Below, piece by piece: positions 42,214 through 53,437 of a stretch of 64,000 nucleotides of DNA. Under the pieces are notes generated by a model that made no database searches, was not told the origin of the DNA, and saw nothing but the letters and a program-made list of their open reading frames with translations. Within the stretch, counting starts at the first letter, position 1. Each line of letters starts with the position of its first letter. Location of the stretch: contig CP073750.1 in NCBI GenBank assembly GCA_024398135.1, forward strand, positions 1,612,001-1,676,000, written 5' to 3'. Source of the stretch: a bacterium SCSIO 12643. GTDB lineage: Bacteria; Bacteroidota; Bacteroidia; Flavobacteriales_G; Salibacteraceae. The translations under genes and the position numbers were made by a program.

Positions 42214-42864
42214 TCAAGCAACTTTAAAAATATAATTCACTTCTGAAGCCAATTGAACCTGAAGAATTTCTTCAAATTCCAGAGTATTCTTTTGTGCAAT
42301 GCTTTTAATTTTTGCCAAATCGCACCCATCCGATAAAATCATGTGTACCTCCGCACCTTTGATTTGAGGCAACTGCTGAAACAGCTTTTCAAAATATTCA
42401 TATTCTACCCCACAAAACCAGGCTTTTTCGGCTACGTTTTCCGGTTCTTTTGGATAGTATGGCGGGTTTATAAATACGTAATCAAAATCTTCTTTAGGCA
42501 CCTGGTCTAACAGGTCAGAATACAAAGCCCGAATGTCCAGATTCAATTGGGCACTTAGTTCCTTTAATGACCTCACAGCTACTTTATTAATATCTGAAGC
42601 CCAAACCTGCGCGCCCTTACTGGCTGCTAAAACAGAAATAATTCCACTGCCACATCCCAATTCTAAAACCCTTTTATTTTGAAGATTTAAAGTAGATATG
42701 AAATCCAAAAACACTTTGGTGCTCATGGTATTTTTAGGAGAAAAAACACCCGGTTGAACCATCGTATAAATATCCTTGTACACGAACTTTCTGGGCTTCC
42801 GATGATACCAGAAATGATACTTCGCGTATAACGGTTGAATGAGTTTTAGAATTCTCCTTTTCAT
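42214..42864 (-). CDS. SAM-dependent methyltransferase with NPPY motif
   Basis: A 216-residue Rossmann-fold methyltransferase. Motif I is ELGCGSGIISVLAASKG, the acidic motif II VWASDINK, and motif IV FINPPYYPKEPEN. NPPY enzymes methylate planar nitrogen groups (PrmC, MTS or N6-adenine/22-type RNA methyltransferases), so it may be a small PrmC/RlmG-like enzyme. Its start overlaps the stop of the upstream radical SAM gene by one base (TAATG). It is the last gene of a seven-gene minus-strand run; whether it shares that pathway is unclear. Confidence 0.85.
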   Translation of the reverse strand: MKRRILKLIQPLYAKYHFWYHRKPRKFVYKDIYTMVQPGVFSPKNTMSTKVFLDFISTLNLQNKRVLELGCGSGIISVLAASKGAQVWASDINKVAVRSLKELSAQLNLDIRALYSDLLDQVPKEDFDYVFINPPYYPKEPENVAEKAWFCGVEYEYFEKLFQQLPQIKGAEVHMILSDGCDLAKIKSIAQKNTLEFEEILQVQLASEVNYIFKVA

Positions 42865-44387
42865 TATTCTGAATAAAAACCCTGTATTTCCGGTTGACGA
42901 TATTTCCAGATCTTATGTAACGCTTTAATCTCATATGGATACTTATAAAAACCCGTTTGGTATCTCCAATGTGAAGCCCAATTTAACAGTCTCTTTTTAA
43001 AACCTTGAATTCTAAAATCTGAAACTGTTGGATACTTTCCATTTAAAACAGTTTCGAAATTTTTAATCGTATCAATCATATATGGTTTTAACCAGGGCGT
43101 TAAAGGATTTTTTCTTAAATCAAAGTGCTCCCAGCTCGGAGAAATCCAATCTTCCAATTTCTCTGGAAAATGGAACCCCGCATCAATAATCTGTTGATAG
43201 AGTTCCGAACCTTCAGTTGGCACCGGACTATAGAGATAAATTATAATTTCAGTATCAGGATTAATCTCTTTGATTTCTTTAATAAAATTGATATCCCATA
43301 AAATCTGTTCGTATACTTTTTCTTCTGTTTCAGCAGGCATTCCTAATACAAATGACATCTCAGGGATTATATCTACTCGTTTCATTCGAGCAGCAAACTC
43401 TTTGATCATTTGACCGGTTTGTGTCCCGCCTTTATTCATTTGCTTCAAGACCTCATCATTTCCCGTCTCCGCCCCTAGAAAAATCATTCTACATCCTGCT
43501 TTACGCATGAGCATCAGATCTTCATCTGAGTATCTATTAATCGTATCGATCCTACCTTCTCCCCAATATTGAATACCATCATTCATGATCAGTTTAGAAA
43601 ACTCCACTACACGCTTTTTGGAGGTAAAAAAATTATTGTCATGGAATTCGACTGCATCAATTCCATACTTTGACTTAAAGTATTGGAGATCCTTATAAAT
43701 GGCATCTGCAGACTTCCCTTTCCAACTCGCATTAAAAATGGGAACGATTGCACAAAATGAACAAGTAAACGGACATCCCATACTGGAATGATAGGACAAT
43801 GTATTTTGTCCCATGAAAGTTTTAGCCAGATAATTACGTAATGGATAATCTGTATTTAAACTTTGATAAGGTAAATCCGGTAATGCATCCTGATCTAATA
43901 ATCCCTCCTTAGCAGTTTTTATTATTTCTCCTTTCTGCGTTTTAAAAATTAAGTTTTTGATTTGTGATAAACGCTCATTTTCACCTGCCTCCAATGTTTC
44001 TATTAAAGATGGAAACGCAACATCGCCCGGACCTTTGATGATATAATTCACATACCCGGAGTCCAGGCAAACCTTATATTGATTGGAAGCAAAATATCCT
44101 CCCCAAATAGTCACGACATCAGAATATTCACTTTTTATCTCTTTCGTAAATGGAATGGCCTGACGGAGTTGCGGTCCCGGCATAACCGTACAGCAGAAAT
44201 ATTGGTATTCTCCTGTATTTAAGAGCGATTTGATTTTGGCTAAGGGTTCATCTTCCAGGTTTCCATCCACCAACGTATATCCATATTTATCATGAATAGA
44301 TGCTGCTACCTGCAATATAGAATTCGGAATTCTATGCTTCGCACTGGCACTCCTGGGATTGAATATGATTAGCTTATTATTTTCCAT
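42864..44387 (-). CDS. B12-binding-type radical SAM protein (1)
   Basis: A 507-residue protein with an N-terminal cobalamin-binding-like Rossmann domain (about 1-145) and a radical SAM domain from about residue 195. The [4Fe-4S] ligands are in SSMGCPFTCSFC. The next segment, VEFHDNNFFTSKKRVVEF, and the ring motif FLGAETGNDEVLKQM are typical. The classical DxHxxG cobalt-ligating motif is not visible (LVDGNLED stands there), as in many radical SAM partners. Related to the two other radical SAM genes at 45588 and 47756 but more divergent. 85 bases separate it from the upstream lipoprotein gene. The product of the reaction is unknown. Confidence 0.88.
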   Translation of the reverse strand: MENNKLIIFNPRSASAKHRIPNSILQVAASIHDKYGYTLVDGNLEDEPLAKIKSLLNTGEYQYFCCTVMPGPQLRQAIPFTKEIKSEYSDVVTIWGGYFASNQYKVCLDSGYVNYIIKGPGDVAFPSLIETLEAGENERLSQIKNLIFKTQKGEIIKTAKEGLLDQDALPDLPYQSLNTDYPLRNYLAKTFMGQNTLSYHSSMGCPFTCSFCAIVPIFNASWKGKSADAIYKDLQYFKSKYGIDAVEFHDNNFFTSKKRVVEFSKLIMNDGIQYWGEGRIDTINRYSDEDLMLMRKAGCRMIFLGAETGNDEVLKQMNKGGTQTGQMIKEFAARMKRVDIIPEMSFVLGMPAETEEKVYEQILWDINFIKEIKEINPDTEIIIYLYSPVPTEGSELYQQIIDAGFHFPEKLEDWISPSWEHFDLRKNPLTPWLKPYMIDTIKNFETVLNGKYPTVSDFRIQGFKKRLLNWASHWRYQTGFYKYPYEIKALHKIWKYRQPEIQGFYSE

Positions 44388-44472: not shown

Positions 44473-45591
44473 TTAATTGATGTGATTCACCTCTTCTACC
44501 GAATATTCTCTAACCGAAGTCGATACGGAAAGCACTTCATATGGTGAGAAACTATTTACTTCTGATCTTCTATATACATCTCCTAAAAAAGGAAACTCCG
44601 CATAAGTCGTGGTAGATAACCCACTCAATTTACTTTCCACTACACTTAAAGGCATTCTCCATTCTTCACTTAATCTGGCTGCAGACGGATACATGAAAGA
44701 AATATATAACAGTTCCATTTGCGTATGATCTTGCTTCTTACCAAAATCAACTCCACCGTTAATTTGTAATTGTTTCTGAGTCAAATTAGAAGAAAACCAT
44801 TCTAATGTATCTTTCAATTGAAGATAGCTTAAAAAACCTGCTTTATCCTTTTGAGAGCTAAACAATGGTGAGATTCTACCTTCATGACACCACATACATT
44901 TAGCTGGTTTTCCAGCTTCCGAAAAACCAGGGTCAGATGCATTTATGCGGATACTATCCGCTCCATATACCCCAAATCGCAAATGTCCGTTCTCCATTAT
45001 CTCAACTGTTTCAAATTCCAAAACCTGTTCATTAATAGAGTCAATTTCTGCTGAGAGAAACAACTGACGCAGCCCTACTTGTTTTGAAAATGATATAATT
45101 CTATGCTTATTAGAAACCACTGAATTATTGACATATCCTTTTCTCATCTCCAATTGATAGTTGGCCATAACATCGGACAACCTCTTAGGTACGCCAGTTA
45201 TAGCATAATAATGTTCAGAGGCACCTAATATCAATGTTACATATCGCCCCAAATCAATGCCCCCGGTTTGTTGATACTCTTCAGATTGTTTTAGACTTTC
45301 ATGCAATTTTTTGATTTGATTCTTTGCATTCACAGAGAAACCCAGATCATCTAAATCCAATTGAAATCTTCTATTCTGATCTAAGGAAACAGCCAATTTA
45401 GATGCGGCTCCAATACTCCCCAAGGCCCAATTTAAACCCAGCATCACGTTTTCTTTGGTTTCCGAAGCGTAAGCCTGATTCCATTTCAAGGTAATGATGG
45501 TATTTGACTCAGGTTCAAAAACAGAATCATGCGTACACCCTGAAATTAATGTAATACCACATAGCACTATGAAGTAACTCCATTTCTTCAT
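44473..45591 (-). CDS. Lipoprotein with a single c-type haem motif
   Basis: About 372 residues from the ATG at 45591, which overlaps the upstream stop by 4 bases (ATGA). The signal sequence MKKWSYFIVLCGITLISGC ends in a lipobox. Near residue 230 the sequence KCMWCHEGRISPLF contains CxxCH, the covalent haem-c attachment site, with a Met-containing stretch further on. I recognise no family. Its place between two radical SAM genes suggests an electron-transfer or sensing role in the envelope linked to the same pathway; this is inference. Confidence 0.75.
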   Translation of the reverse strand: MKKWSYFIVLCGITLISGCTHDSVFEPESNTIITLKWNQAYASETKENVMLGLNWALGSIGAASKLAVSLDQNRRFQLDLDDLGFSVNAKNQIKKLHESLKQSEEYQQTGGIDLGRYVTLILGASEHYYAITGVPKRLSDVMANYQLEMRKGYVNNSVVSNKHRIISFSKQVGLRQLFLSAEIDSINEQVLEFETVEIMENGHLRFGVYGADSIRINASDPGFSEAGKPAKCMWCHEGRISPLFSSQKDKAGFLSYLQLKDTLEWFSSNLTQKQLQINGGVDFGKKQDHTQMELLYISFMYPSAARLSEEWRMPLSVVESKLSGLSTTTYAEFPFLGDVYRRSEVNSFSPYEVLSVSTSVREYSVEEVNHIN

Positions 45592-46970
45592 TTTGACCAT
45601 TTCATTAAAGTAGAGGCTGCTGTAGATTTTAATTTAAGTTTCCACTGATTCCAGCCTGCATGACCTTCTAATTGTGCTTTATGTGACGATACCTCATTTA
45701 CGATATATCTTACCGCATAATCATAATACTTCCTTGAATATGTCCGCTCAAAATCGATATCGCGATCTGTAGATGATTCCCAGGCTAAACTGGTTGTGAT
45801 TTGATTCTGAACCTGATTATACAGTCCTGTTCCTTTAATGGGATAAGCTACTGTAATTGTAAATTGATCCGGATTAGCCTGCTTTAAATATTCCACAGTT
45901 TGAAAAATATCTTCCTCGGTTTCTTTAGGATATCCCACCATAATAAATGTTCCGGTTTGGATCCCATAGTCTTTCGTCTTTATAATCATATCACGAACCA
46001 AATGTATATCTACCCTACGATCCATTTCATTAATGATTCGTTGCGAACCGCTTTCCGCACCAATCCAAATCTTGCTACATCCCATCTCCTGAAGTTGCTG
46101 TAAAACCTCATCATTCAATCTTTCCGCTCGTGTAATACATTCAAAAGGGATCTTGATTCCACGTTTTTTAAACTCCTGATATAATTCTCCTAACCATTTG
46201 TGGTTCACTGTAAACACATCATCCACAAACCACAACGAATCGGGATTATATTTTTCAATCAATAGTTCTATTTCATCCGCAACCAGGTTTGGAGATCTTC
46301 TACGATAACTTTTACCATATACCGCAGTACTACACCATTTACAAGTGTATGGGCACCCACGTTGCGTAGAAATATTTAGCGTATTTGTACCATGAAATTC
46401 TTTCCATACGTTAAGGTACTTTTCCAGGTCAATCGCATCTCGATCAGGCAATGGAAGCTGATCCATTTTCCTGATTTTTTCTCTGGGTTCCGTCCGAATA
46501 AAAGCTCCTTCTGAATTTTGATATGCAATCCCGGGGATATTAGAATAATCTTCCTGATTACAAATAGACTGACATAATTCTTGCATAGTTTGCTCTCCTT
46601 CTCCAATTACTAAATAATCCGCGCCAAATCGCAGATAATTTTCGTAATTATAGGTTACGTCCGGGCCACCCATCACAATTTGCATATGGTTTAATTCAGA
46701 CTGGGATTTAATCCATTGCATCAATCGAATGTTATTCACTTTAGTCATTAGATTGGCATAAATCGCAATGACACTGGGTTTATGTCTCAAAATATATTCC
46801 TGTTGTTCCTCGTAACTTGAAAATGTAGTATCAAAAACAGACACCTCGAAATCATGTTTCTTCAAGTAAGCTGAGATATACAACAGACCCAAGGGGGGAT
46901 ATGGGCGCATGATACTTTGCTCCACTTCATCCGTATGGATGAAATATCCATGTGTCAGTAAAACGTCCAT
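45588..46970 (-). CDS. B12-binding-type radical SAM protein (2)
   Basis: A 460-residue protein beginning MDVLLTHGYFIHTDEVEQS, with an N-terminal cobalamin-type domain (MRPYPPLGLLYISAYLKKHD; FEVSVFDTTF) and the radical SAM domain at about residues 190-400. Cluster ligands lie in STQRGCPYTCKWC near residue 205. WFVDDVFTVNHKWL and IWIGAESGSQRIINEM are conserved with the 481-residue homologue upstream. Directly abuts the methyltransferase gene. Such enzymes can perform methylations, ring formations or other radical chemistry on unactivated carbons. Confidence 0.9.
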   Translation of the reverse strand: MDVLLTHGYFIHTDEVEQSIMRPYPPLGLLYISAYLKKHDFEVSVFDTTFSSYEEQQEYILRHKPSVIAIYANLMTKVNNIRLMQWIKSQSELNHMQIVMGGPDVTYNYENYLRFGADYLVIGEGEQTMQELCQSICNQEDYSNIPGIAYQNSEGAFIRTEPREKIRKMDQLPLPDRDAIDLEKYLNVWKEFHGTNTLNISTQRGCPYTCKWCSTAVYGKSYRRRSPNLVADEIELLIEKYNPDSLWFVDDVFTVNHKWLGELYQEFKKRGIKIPFECITRAERLNDEVLQQLQEMGCSKIWIGAESGSQRIINEMDRRVDIHLVRDMIIKTKDYGIQTGTFIMVGYPKETEEDIFQTVEYLKQANPDQFTITVAYPIKGTGLYNQVQNQITTSLAWESSTDRDIDFERTYSRKYYDYAVRYIVNEVSSHKAQLEGHAGWNQWKLKLKSTAASTLMKWSK

Positions 46971-47756
46971 TTATTTTTTTATCAAATGAATTAAAAAATG
47001 ATCACTAAAAGCCGCCTTGCCAATACTATACTGACTTTTCTTATCCGCTGCCCTCATTCGGTCCAAAAGTTTTGGTCTGTTTTGAAACATTGGATTTAAA
47101 TAGGAGGGTGGTACATAAAATCCTATCGGACTAATTTGAATCGTTTCAAATCCTTTTGCCATTTGACTCAACTCTTGAGGTGCGTAATAATACGTCTTAA
47201 CTTGCTGGCCCTCTACATGGGCCCAAACACCTTCTTTCTGACTTCTACGGAAAGCAGCACTCCATTTTAACTTGCCTAAAAAATATAGGGACTCCCATAA
47301 ACACTTATTGGTCATGACAACCAAAACAAGATGGCCTCCAGATTTTAGTTTATTGTGAATTGACTTGAAAAAGCTTTGTAATTCTTTTGGGGATAAACAA
47401 TTTAGCCCTCCAAAATTGGAAAAAACCAAATCGTACAAATCATCTTGTAATTGATTCTGAATATCATTGATATCCAAAACTTCACATTTCACATTTGCAT
47501 ATGATTCTGTTTTTGATCTGGCTACTTCAACCATAGACCTGGATATATCCGTAGCCAATACATTACCCCCTTTTTCCGCCAAATACTTCGCATCCTCTCC
47601 GGTTCCACAGTTTAATTCCAGAACATTCCATCCCTGAATTTTTGAAAACTCTTTTTCTAAAGCATCATATACTAAATCGCGCTGTGCTACTCCGATAGCC
47701 GTTTTTGTAAAATCCGAATCATAACGACCGGCAATATGATCGAAATCCGGCCGCAT
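46971..47756 (-). CDS. Class I SAM-dependent methyltransferase
   Basis: A 261-residue methyltransferase: MRPDFDHIAGRYDSDFTKT at the N-terminus, motif I NVLELNCGTGEDAKYLAEKG, motif II VLATDISRSMV, and a post-motif LVFSNFGGLNCLSP. This is the UbiE/Coq5-like small-molecule or lipid methyltransferase type. It sits between two radical SAM genes with one-base overlap on one side and no gap on the other, so it is surely in the same transcript and probably the same pathway. Confidence 0.88.
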   Translation of the reverse strand: MRPDFDHIAGRYDSDFTKTAIGVAQRDLVYDALEKEFSKIQGWNVLELNCGTGEDAKYLAEKGGNVLATDISRSMVEVARSKTESYANVKCEVLDINDIQNQLQDDLYDLVFSNFGGLNCLSPKELQSFFKSIHNKLKSGGHLVLVVMTNKCLWESLYFLGKLKWSAAFRRSQKEGVWAHVEGQQVKTYYYAPQELSQMAKGFETIQISPIGFYVPPSYLNPMFQNRPKLLDRMRAADKKSQYSIGKAAFSDHFLIHLIKK

Positions 47757-49201
47757 TACGCTTTGTTACTCGATTTTTGAAGTTCTTGTTTGTATTTCGC
47801 AATGATGGGTTGATAATACATCTTTTTCATCCAGGCTTTTGCTCCTGAGATGGATATTCCATGTTTTCTCATATTCTCATCAGCCTGGGCACTTCGAAAT
47901 ACTTTATGTACATATCGATGGAGTACTTTATAATAATCCTGGTTAAACGTATTCTGAAACATTAATGCCAAATCATCCGAATCTTCCCAATTGGCCTTTT
48001 GACTCAACTGAGACTTCACTTTATCATAAAATTTTGTTCCTGGTAATGGATATGAAACACTCACCCCTATATCGTCCGGCATAAAATCCAACAGCATATC
48101 AATGGTAGATTCAATGTCTTTTTTGGTTTCTCCTAAATAACCGAATTGCAAGAAATACGCGACTCTAACACCTTTAGACTGCAACAACTGTGTGCTTTGC
48201 TTAATTTGCTCAATAGAAGTCCCTTTATCCATCGCATCCAGAATCTCTTGCGAGCCACTTTCCGCACCAATCCATACTTCATACAGACCTGATTCAACCA
48301 AAGCGTCAATGTTATCTTCTTTGAGCAACAAATCTGCACGACTTTGAATCTTATACTTAATAGCGATCTTAGCTTTCTGAAGCTCATCTCTAAAACGTTG
48401 TACCCATCCTGGTTTTAGTCCAAAAATATCATCACACATCCAAAATTTACGCACTCCAAATTGTGCCTTCAAATATTGAACCTCCTCCACAACTCTTTGT
48501 GGTGATCTGACATTATAACGCTGACCATATATTGGTTTGGCACACCAATTACACTTATATGGGCATCCTCTGGTAGTCGCAATATTTAAAGCAAAATCAT
48601 GTCCATTGGATTTCCAAATTTGCTTATAGGCATTTACATCCACCAAATCCCAGGCCGGTTGTGGCAATATATCCAAATCCTTTAAGACAGGCCTTTTACC
48701 TGTCTGTATTAATTCTCCGCTTCGATAAAAACAAATACCTTGAATCTCATCCAAACTGGTTTTATTCTCAAATGCATCAATCGTTTCTTTTAACGATAAC
48801 TCCCCTTCCCCTAAAAGCACGACATCTGCTCCCTGATCCAAATATTTTTGGAAATGATCCGTAGAGTCCGAACTGGATACAATAACCTTACATCCTCTAT
48901 CTCTGGCAAATCGAATCATTTTAAATGCTGCTTCACGCATATTCGTCAAGCACATTTTTGTCAAATAATTAAACCCATCATCGTATAACACCAAATACTC
49001 CGGATTTTGCACGTCAATTATCTGAACAATCTCCTCCGGTCCATCCTTTAAACACACATCAAACAAATCAACTTCATAGCCATTCTCCCGCAACCATGAA
49101 GCGGCATAGATCGTTCCTAACGGAGGATATGGCGTACCCATCTTCCACTGTTTTGGATCCAGACGATAATAATAACTATGACTAAACAGAACTTTGGACA
49201 T
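47756..49201 (-). CDS. B12-binding-type radical SAM protein (3)
   Basis: A 481-residue protein with the N-terminal MGTPYPPLGTIYAASWLREN and a cobalamin-like domain lacking DxHxxG (DLFDVCLKDG), then a radical SAM domain with ATTRGCPYKCNWC near residue 212. FWMCDDIFGLKPGWV and VWIGAESGSQEILDAM align with the gene at 45588. It lies 4 bases after the nucleotidyltransferase gene. It may be a paralogue that performs a parallel or successive step. Confidence 0.9.
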   Translation of the reverse strand: MSKVLFSHSYYYRLDPKQWKMGTPYPPLGTIYAASWLRENGYEVDLFDVCLKDGPEEIVQIIDVQNPEYLVLYDDGFNYLTKMCLTNMREAAFKMIRFARDRGCKVIVSSSDSTDHFQKYLDQGADVVLLGEGELSLKETIDAFENKTSLDEIQGICFYRSGELIQTGKRPVLKDLDILPQPAWDLVDVNAYKQIWKSNGHDFALNIATTRGCPYKCNWCAKPIYGQRYNVRSPQRVVEEVQYLKAQFGVRKFWMCDDIFGLKPGWVQRFRDELQKAKIAIKYKIQSRADLLLKEDNIDALVESGLYEVWIGAESGSQEILDAMDKGTSIEQIKQSTQLLQSKGVRVAYFLQFGYLGETKKDIESTIDMLLDFMPDDIGVSVSYPLPGTKFYDKVKSQLSQKANWEDSDDLALMFQNTFNQDYYKVLHRYVHKVFRSAQADENMRKHGISISGAKAWMKKMYYQPIIAKYKQELQKSSNKA

Positions 49202-49205
49202 ATGG

Positions 49206-50132
49206 CTATGCTACTGATTGAATTTCATTCATTTTTAACTCCAGAGCAGATATTCTTTGTTCATAACCCTCCAGCACCTTTTTCTGAAAATGACTCGGAT
49301 GGTGCTTGGAAACTCTTTTGGTCGTTTTCAATGCCACTTCAAAATCTTCCTTTTCAAAATAGGGGAACTTTTTCCTCCATCTCTTTAAAGTCAATTTCAT
49401 AAAAAAATCATCCAATATATCTCCCCACTTTAAATTCAAAATGGCTTCTAATGTCTTCTGTAAAAACCCCGGAGTAATCTCCATAGACCCTCGGTCAGGA
49501 TAGTCAATATAGTCCGGATAAAACGAACCGACCCATGCATTTTCTTGCATTAGGTTCTGATATAACTTTCTATTCACAATGGGCCATAAAGTCACTAGCT
49601 CCGTTGCAGTAAAACGATTTTTATGTTGGATTTCTAATGTCTCATCATCAATTAAATAATTGATACAGAAATATTTCCTTGAGTTTAGTAAAAACACTTT
49701 TTTGTATGCAATCAATAATGTTCTGGCAATCCATAACCGATTTGGCGCAGTGACAATAAAATAATCTATATCTCCATCTTCTGTCATCGTTCCTTTAGAC
49801 AATGAACCCGAAATAAAAACGCCTCTAACGTAAGGGAACTTCGCGATTAATCTGGATTTCTTAAAAGCCTGGTCAATATAAGCTTTTGCTCGCTGATCTC
49901 CTGATACACGATTATGGACCAGCGTCATATCATTTTTTAACGCATAAAAATCTTCTAACTGAAATATTAATTTCTCTCTTGTTAGCCAGAGTAATTCTTC
50001 ATCTAAATTTAATCGAATAGCAGGATCAACAAATTGTTCCAATTCCTGTCTATTCAAAGGGAAACTGAACACATCAAAATACGCCAATGCCTTTAATACA
50101 TTACTCATATTTGACTGTATAGTATGATTCAT
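49206..50132 (-). CDS. Nucleotidyltransferase-domain protein
   Basis: A 308-residue protein. The Pol-beta-type nucleotidyltransferase motif is clear: GVFISGSLSKGTMTEDGDIDYFIV (GS followed by DxD), preceded by a helix-turn-helix-like region with FPLNRQELEQFV. Such domains transfer NMP to a protein, antibiotic or lipid head group. It is the first gene of the seven-gene run. As a component of a MNT/HEPN toxin pair it would need a HEPN partner, which is not present, so a biosynthetic role is more likely. Confidence 0.82.
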   Translation of the reverse strand: MNHTIQSNMSNVLKALAYFDVFSFPLNRQELEQFVDPAIRLNLDEELLWLTREKLIFQLEDFYALKNDMTLVHNRVSGDQRAKAYIDQAFKKSRLIAKFPYVRGVFISGSLSKGTMTEDGDIDYFIVTAPNRLWIARTLLIAYKKVFLLNSRKYFCINYLIDDETLEIQHKNRFTATELVTLWPIVNRKLYQNLMQENAWVGSFYPDYIDYPDRGSMEITPGFLQKTLEAILNLKWGDILDDFFMKLTLKRWRKKFPYFEKEDFEVALKTTKRVSKHHPSHFQKKVLEGYEQRISALELKMNEIQSVA

Positions 50133-52273: not shown

Positions 52274-53437
52274 TTGAATTTCATTACGCAGATTAAAAAG
52301 CCGCATTGGATTGCGACCATTCTCACTTTTATTCTGGTGGGAATTTTTACTATTCAAAATTATGTGCTGGATACGTATGAAGTTAATGGGGTTACTGTCT
52401 CGTTCTACAATAATTATCTTATTTTCAAACAATCATTCTTTAGTTTGATTGAGAATCTAAATCTGTATACGAATCACCGACCGATTCATGTAGATTACTT
52501 TAAATACAGCCCGACATTCGCCCTGTTTTTTGGACTTTTTGCTCCAATTCCTATACTATTGGGTTTATTCATTTGGAATATGCTCAATGCTTTGGTTTTT
52601 TATGTCATATGGCAAATGGATCTCTCTAATCAAAAAAACAAGTTTTGGATTTGGGCCTTTTTGATCGTAGAATTTTTGACCAATGTACAAAGCTCGCAAA
52701 GTAATGGAATCATGGCCGGGTTAATCATCTTAGCATACTTATTCCTGGAAAAAAAGAATGTAGTTCTGGCCACTTTAATGGTCGTGCTATCCGTGTATAT
52801 AAAGCTTTTTGGATTAGTTGCATTTGCGCTATTCTTATTTTATCCCGATAAAATCAAAGCTATTTTATATGCAGCACTTTGGGGGATACTACTATTCTTA
52901 CTTCCATTAATTGTGGTAAGCCCTACTGAACTCATTCAACAATATGAAAACTGGCTCAACTTATTAATTATTGATGAGGCACGAGATTATAGTCCTTCTG
53001 TAATGGGCTGGTTAAACTCCTGGTTTCACATTTATCCATCTGGAAAGCTTTTGACCGGATTGGGTATTATTATGTTCCTTATTCCATTTACTCAGATCAA
53101 GAAATACTCAAATCCGGTATTTAAACAACTGATTTTAGCATCTATTCTGATCTGGGTTGTCATTTTTAACCATAAGGCCGAGTCTCCTACTTTTATCATC
53201 GCAGTTTCGGGAGTAGCAATTTGGTTTTTTTGTCAAAAACCAAACCCAATACATTGGGTATTGCTTATGCTTACTGTAGTATTTACGCAATTATCTCCTA
53301 CCGATTTATTCCCTCCCCACATTCGAAACGAGATCTTTATTCCATACGTGATTAAGGTTGTTCCGGTAATTCTAGTTTGGTTTAAGGTCATATACGATGC
53401 TACTTTTTTGAGATTGGAAGACACCAAAAAAGCATAA
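52274..53437 (+). CDS. GT87-like membrane glycosyltransferase
   Basis: A 387-residue integral membrane protein with about nine helices. The motif HVDYFKYSPTFALFFG after the first extracytoplasmic loop and SVMGWLNSW later match the DUF2029/GT87 family, polyprenyl-phosphate-sugar dependent mannosyltransferases. It begins with TTG at 52274 (MNFITQIKKPHWIA). Third gene of a probable operon with the PLP enzyme and VOC protein; the sugar acceptor is unknown. Confidence 0.8.
   Translation: MNFITQIKKPHWIATILTFILVGIFTIQNYVLDTYEVNGVTVSFYNNYLIFKQSFFSLIENLNLYTNHRPIHVDYFKYSPTFALFFGLFAPIPILLGLFIWNMLNALVFYVIWQMDLSNQKNKFWIWAFLIVEFLTNVQSSQSNGIMAGLIILAYLFLEKKNVVLATLMVVLSVYIKLFGLVAFALFLFYPDKIKAILYAALWGILLFLLPLIVVSPTELIQQYENWLNLLIIDEARDYSPSVMGWLNSWFHIYPSGKLLTGLGIIMFLIPFTQIKKYSNPVFKQLILASILIWVVIFNHKAESPTFIIAVSGVAIWFFCQKPNPIHWVLLMLTVVFTQLSPTDLFPPHIRNEIFIPYVIKVVPVILVWFKVIYDATFLRLEDTKKA

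Follow-up and report, generated by a model that had tools for sequence, protein, structure and literature searches.

An operon of the bacterium SCSIO 12643 (Bacteroidota; Salibacteraceae) raises the question of what an apparently exported protein with a c-type haem site is doing among genes for radical SAM enzymes, which work in the cytoplasm. The operon lies within a stretch of 64,000 nucleotides of contig CP073750.1, referred to here as the window, and coordinates count from the first base of that stretch unless another locus is named. The gene at issue, here called HEM, occupies positions 44473..45591 of the minus strand and encodes 372 amino acids from an ATGA start; the longest frame, ORF 44473-45600(-), has 375 aa, and residue numbering follows this 375-aa ORF. 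The start is placed at M4 (45591), where the ATG shares bases with the TGA that ends the upstream B12-binding radical SAM gene (45588-46970), as a preliminary description of the locus had proposed in calling the two genes translationally coupled. That description had also named a lipobox and a single haem c site, and both can be read straight from the sequence. The lipobox Cys is C22 of LISGC (45535..45537, minus strand), and the haem c attachment site is CMWCH at residues 235-239 (C235-H239; 44884..44898, minus strand), within the conserved stretch GKPxKCxWCHE.

Organization of the operon

The operon spans 50132 down to 42214, and all seven of its genes lie on the minus strand. The first, NTase (49206..50132), encodes a nucleotidyltransferase domain protein (PF01909). 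It is followed by rSAM1 (47756..49201), a radical SAM protein with the motif CPYKCNWC and a sub-threshold B12-binding match; MT1 (46971..47756), a class I SAM methyltransferase; and rSAM2 (45588..46970), which joins a B12-binding to a radical SAM domain (CPYTCKWC) and overlaps the start of HEM. Beginning 85 bases past HEM are rSAM3 (42864..44387), another radical SAM protein (CPFTCSFC) whose B12-binding match is again sub-threshold, and then MT2 (42214..42864), also a class I SAM methyltransferase. Beyond MT2 stand genes that we take to be ruvB and a queG-like gene.

All three radical SAM neighbours match PF04055 and carry CxxxCxxC, and the B12-binding match is above cut-off in rSAM2 only. Their domain architecture is that of B12 radical SAM proteins of the BchE, HpnJ, PhpK and TIGR04295 types. 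Among the best 25 matches for each of the seven operon proteins scanned, none to NCBIfam was above its curated cut-off. Those of rSAM1, rSAM2 and rSAM3 to the B12 radical SAM families of that collection all fell below cut-off as well (best 25 of 26 to 52 for each), so no known reaction can be assigned to these enzymes. A search of the open-licence literature, covering titles and abstract openings among the matches listed, found no description of this gene set.

Conservation of the haem site

The preliminary description made its reading depend on conservation of the CxxCH among homologues, and the motif is indeed kept: CxWCHE stands in 61/61 homologue records, 59 of them distinct because the contigs of L002 and L003 recur as L031 and L041. 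The records comprise 10 from 60 relatives, among them that of the query itself, and 51 from a contig scan whose search patterns included AKCMWCHE. The 10 relatives' genomes were found without any motif-based seed, and CxWCH is present in all 10 despite identity down to 29-31%, with M, L, I or H at the second position. The conservation of CxWCH is not chance.

An alignment of 55 rows was assembled after setting aside six of the 61 records: L007 and L058, both truncated at contig ends, L060, whose frame is partial, L051, which is divided between frames, and the duplicates L031 and L041. It contains 21 invariant columns. Nine fall in the haem-motif stretch (G230, K231, P232, K234, C235, W237, C238, H239 and E240, each in 55/55 rows), seven precede it (W58, Y131, S160, R167, E197, N204 and G205), and the remainder are Y299, P305, E313, E335 and R345. 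There is one CxxCH per protein among the homologues listed. By thresholds of our own, 55/55 rows have a hydrophobic segment at the N-terminus and 39/55 a lipobox; in several of the 16 rows lacking the lipobox a Cys is suitably placed, and others have none. Judged from these sequences, the export signal looks universal and lipidation looks to be the rule. A C-terminal metal site (a pattern of HxxxE plus HxHxE) was considered and dropped, as the window protein is without its second part (T331).

HEM is present in 10/60 relatives, counting its own genome. The 51 loci of the contig scan bear Bacteroidota names, the hosts being Flavobacterium, Polaribacter, Crocinitomix, Aquimarina, Dokdonia, Mangrovimonas, Aureispira, Nubsella, Chitinophaga and MAGs. 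The distribution is patchy, since among 296 genomes drawn evenly from the phylum HEM was found in the own genome and at least one other, the latter probably the record of L032; this is a lower bound given that at most 6 candidates were scored per genome. One locus, L051:2009-9040, comes from a Flavobacterium MAG titled as a complete genome; there rSAM2 and HEM are each broken across frames and NTase has a short frame, in all likelihood through assembly errors.

Relation to known protein families

The earlier statement that HEM belongs to no recognised family holds, in that Pfam, NCBIfam and PDB sequence searches assigned none. With the whole family as query, the PDB search gave 0 matches at E <= 1, and with the domain it gave one, a cellulose hydrolase at E 0.89. 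Pfam searches of the 55 aligned members returned scattered weak matches, the commonest being DUF6402 (4/55, best E 0.038); a match to Peptidase_M57 (E 0.15) was rejected because it occurred in one member of 55.

Among the structural likenesses described below is cytochrome P460 (PF16694). PF16694 matched none of the 55 members at E <= 0.5, and profile comparison of HEM with P460 by hhalign was not significant, with probabilities of 1.5% and 0.8%. A widened P460 set raised this to 9.2%, a score also reached by 21/300 column shuffles that kept the motif and by 27/200 with the motif masked. Adding a score shift of +0.2 brought the P460 match to 66% and 89%, values that were discarded since the gain comes from the added score. 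A sequence-profile relation between HEM and P460 is not established, and HEM is not filed as a P460 member because no significant profile match was found. Sequence similarity within the P460/c'-beta superfamily is itself low (PMC11928373), so the failed profile match lowers the case for membership rather than the case for likeness.

The genome of SCSIO 12643 also encodes, elsewhere, a separate small lipoprotein-like protein of the P460 family (PF16694; L116, G000:C1:2993235-2993462), which scores 26.0 bits, or 28.6 with its frame neighbours, against a cut-off of 27. Three further Bacteroidota frames of 256-319 aa (L117, L118 and L119) have sub-threshold PF16694 matches and a C-terminal extension past the CxxCH. 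These three may represent forms intermediate between P460 and haem lipoproteins of larger size.

Predicted fold of the haem domain

An AlphaFold2 model of HEM, built on the family alignment, has a pLDDT of 91.5 and a pTM of 0.88, with the haem-motif stretch poorly modelled (mean pLDDT 58, residues 231-240). Five consecutive strands (155-157, 166-172, 180-186, 193-201 and 207-213) precede the CxxCH in the model. When the full model was compared with 995 chains by VIA-align, rows 1-6 were cytochrome c'-beta (three proteins) at Z 5.9-6.7 over 98-110 residues, and two NeP460 entries stood at ranks 8 and 13; all Z values here are below 8, where by the tool's own guidance a match may be merely a common arrangement. 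The domain alone (residues 126-284) was modelled with a pLDDT of 85.7 and a pTM of 0.82, falling below 50 in pLDDT around the haem motif. Its rows 1-9 were all c'-beta or P460 (four distinct proteins), at Z 5.3-6.8 over 100-111 residues with an rmsd of 3.3-3.9 Å, and the top non-haem row, at Z 5.1 over 62 residues, was tied with the lowest haem rows.

VIA-align compares chains and ignores cofactors. Its rows cover mainly residues 134-274, and no fold is claimed for the rest of HEM. Foldseek gave no match with E <= 0.001 for either the model or the domain, the rows shown being unrelated, and families missing from its lists are not thereby excluded. Every one of the top VIA-align rows is a haem c protein, all share a single fold, and the conserved haem site of HEM lies past the last strand; together these features would count for more than a middling Z on its own. 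A P460/c'-beta-like fold for the predicted beta-sheet haem domain (residues 134-271; 44788..45201, minus strand) is supported but not proven, and HEM most likely works like a beta-sheet c-type cytochrome, as a larger and exported variant of the single-haem kind.

In the c'-beta cytochromes (McCP-beta, 6hih; TtCP-beta, 7ead; NeCP-beta, 7s5o) the CxxCH for the single haem c also lies past the last strand of the beta-sheet. Unlike them, HEM is 375 aa long, extends beyond the domain at both termini and carries a lipoprotein signal, and its strands appear to carry conserved charged residues where c'-beta has a hydrophobic pocket. Sequence profiles establish no relation to c'-beta either. Cytochrome P460 is of the same fold class, the domain aligning with McP460 at Z 5.6 and with NeP460 at Z 4.2, both again under 8. 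HEM differs from P460 in its linkage to glycan and radical SAM genes and in having no Pfam match.

A candidate distal pocket

For McP460, PMC11928373 names Arg50 as the cap, Lys78 as the cross-linking residue and Asp102 as the carboxylate. In our own count on the P460 alignment, each of these three residues falls on a conserved block of its own; the blocks are consecutive and come before the one that runs into the CxxCH. By strand order, the matching strands of HEM bear R167 (55/55), E185 (54/55) and E197 (55/55), and the strand matched by the same order to that of the cross-linking Lys78 of P460 has no conserved Lys. In P460 proper, that cross-link joins the Lys to the haem meso carbon. The strand of the invariant E197 (45010..45012, minus strand; 55/55 rows) would thus be the counterpart of the P460 distal-carboxylate strand. 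Default hhalign with the widened P460 set places E197 on the Asp102 column of McP460, and under other settings the register moves by one strand. The arrangement would fit a pocket that is polar and enzyme-like but has no cross-linking Lys, for which R167, E185 and E197 are the candidates. A Met or His distal ligand, which the preliminary description had advised looking for, is not indicated, because the domain looks most like beta-sheet cytochromes whose distal site is open.

Conserved gene neighbourhood

The link to radical SAM genes, first proposed from the window alone, is backed by gene order and co-occurrence among the homologues' neighbours. NTase, rSAM1, MT1 and rSAM2 are contiguous in 29/51 HEM loci, and HEM stands next or next but one after this four-gene row in 27/51; many of the remaining loci are cut by contig ends or rearranged. 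Within the 36 HEM loci of at least 15 kb, NTase is found in 32, rSAM1 in 33, MT1 in 31, rSAM2 in 31, rSAM3 in 30 and MT2 in 26, along with a GT87 cluster in 32 and a multi-TM cluster, cluster 5, in 30. The gene directly before HEM, in the 50 loci having one, is rSAM2 in 20 and a member of multi-TM cluster 8 in 14, the order in those 14 being rSAM2, cluster 8, HEM. Additional radical SAM paralogues occur in L022:10339-11751, L053:2990-4405 and L098:1149-15111, the last locus having five radical SAM genes near HEM.

HEM is followed by rSAM3 on the same strand in 30 loci, and between the two lie genes of multi-TM cluster 5 (24 loci), GT87 cluster 3 (23) and GT2 cluster 6 (17). The GT87 name derives from members in L026 and L098, and the GT2 name from L026. 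Six members of cluster 5 that were scanned gave no Pfam match above cut-off; by eye the cluster looks like a polysaccharide flippase. Other genes above cut-off in HEM loci are GT4, GT9, FkbM, the NKWYS capsule family and an arylsulfotransferase, with PMT_2 and GDSL slightly under, and EpsG is above cut-off in L088, a core locus that lacks HEM. By association only, these neighbours point to a surface glycoconjugate.

The window operon itself contains neither a GT87 nor a flippase-like gene, and within the genus one genome (G002, locus L031) carries a cluster 5 gene and another (G001, locus L041) a cluster 3 gene. Two cluster 5 members used as queries gave no match in the SCSIO 12643 genome, and such empty answers show little by themselves; the GT87 gene of the same-genus cluster gave one distant match elsewhere in that genome (27% identity, E 9.5e-9). 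A GT87 membrane protein is encoded near the operon on the opposite strand (52274-53437, plus), and it is weakly similar to the GT87 of the relatives' clusters (E 0.001, 21% coverage).

NTase occurs in 23/60 relatives, comprising 10/10 with HEM and 13/50 without (Fisher p 1.5e-5, without kinship correction). It was also found in 8/9 hand-picked HEM genomes from the contig scan, the exception being the MAG of L059; for L054, L055 and L061 it lay in the genome outside the examined flank, and for L045 and L052 it was already visible at the locus. Six of the 13 NTase genomes without HEM show the NTase-rSAM core (L085, L087, L088, L089, L090 and L096), whereas L086, L094 and L095 have an NTase relative without a recognised adjacent radical SAM gene, and L084, L091, L092 and L093 are short contigs. 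The six HEM-less core loci, some of them cut by contig ends, contain no HEM, no cluster 5 and GT87 in one, and one of these genomes, G016, is 54% complete. Since these six have no HEM match, the NTase-rSAM core seems able to work without HEM; HEM accompanies the core, which is not restricted to genomes that have HEM.

Compartments and possible roles

The preliminary description saw a paradox in cytoplasmic, anaerobic-type radical SAM enzymes being linked to a haem c attached outside the cytoplasm. This paradox is weak, as the hosts of these radical SAM genes include Flavobacterium, Polaribacter and Dokdonia, which lead an aerobic life, and radical SAM enzymes are common in aerobes. Envelope glycan pathways, moreover, ordinarily proceed by cytoplasmic assembly and then export.

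The preferred reading, in which we infer a covalent haem, a glycoconjugate product and catalysis, is that HEM is an exported haem enzyme acting on an exported glycoconjugate whose precursor is made by the B12 radical SAM enzymes; it is put forward tentatively, its likelihood being somewhat short of even. Cytoplasmic NTase, rSAM1, MT1, rSAM2, rSAM3 and MT2 would most likely make or decorate the precursor of a surface glycoconjugate (a glycan or glycolipid). The precursor would then probably cross the inner membrane, a movement suggested by the GT87 and flippase-like multi-TM genes beside HEM in most relatives. HEM itself would be exported and usually lipid-anchored, with one covalent haem c held by His239 in the c'-beta/P460-like beta-sheet domain and with family-specific parts flanking that domain on both sides. 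Conserved polar residues would line its open distal site, and as a haem enzyme it would most likely act in the periplasm, either on the precursor or on some small oxidant or nitrogen species that the precursor requires. Attachment of haem c is probably possible in this host because its genome has two matches above cut-off to the cytochrome c assembly family PF01578 (frames of 1039 and 1042 aa).

Other roles have to be weighed against this one. B12 radical SAM enzymes are oxygen-sensitive, and HEM might protect or regulate their pathway as a periplasmic sensor or scavenger of gas (NO, O2 or CO) or of redox state rather than tailor a product. The c'-beta proteins fill the top structural rows, and gas binding is the role proposed for them (PMC11928373); a LacI-type regulator (identified by eye, cluster 10) flanks the cluster in 7/51 loci. 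No recurring periplasmic signalling partner was seen, however, among the clusters examined, in which part of the neighbours are annotated, and nothing here favours sensing over catalysis; this role is considered unlikely.

A single haem c motif in a protein that is usually lipid-anchored would also suit a cytochrome c that passes electrons to, or takes them from, an enzyme of the pathway in the envelope. The annotated part of the neighbours includes no membrane redox partner, and the near-invariant H130 and H292 belong to helices and not to the predicted beta-sheet part. Electron transfer is considered improbable. Just as doubtful is a structural lipoprotein of the glycan export or assembly machinery in which haem is merely stabilising. 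It could explain why GT87 and flippase-like genes are such frequent companions, with cluster 5 in 6/6 HEM loci of 16-19 kb against 0/6 HEM-less core loci (some contig-cut), but HEM is kept in the window operon without them, which also weakens any tie of HEM to the flippase and GT87 part solely, and the 21 invariant residues, many of them polar and spread across the protein, look more like an active site. Least probable is a CxWCH that serves without haem as a metal or disulfide site: CxxCH motifs occur in non-haem proteins too and the predicted model contains no haem, but the export signal in all rows, the assembly genes of the genome and top structural rows made up of haem c proteins of one fold argue against it.

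Implications

The exported-enzyme reading can be widened to the family as a whole, as a single-haem c enzyme family that places a beta-sheet fold in a larger lipoprotein and finishes in the periplasm a surface glycoconjugate begun by several B12 radical SAM enzymes; in this full form the proposal is a speculative one and rather unlikely as it stands. If true, it would mean a two-compartment pathway in which radical SAM and haem c chemistry are combined. The P460/c'-beta fold is described (PMC11928373) as unique to two families, with functions in hydroxylamine oxidation and gas binding. A Bacteroidota branch of that fold residing in glycan and radical SAM clusters would give it a biosynthetic role, and the same branch may offer a handle on the products of uncharacterised B12 radical SAM clusters.
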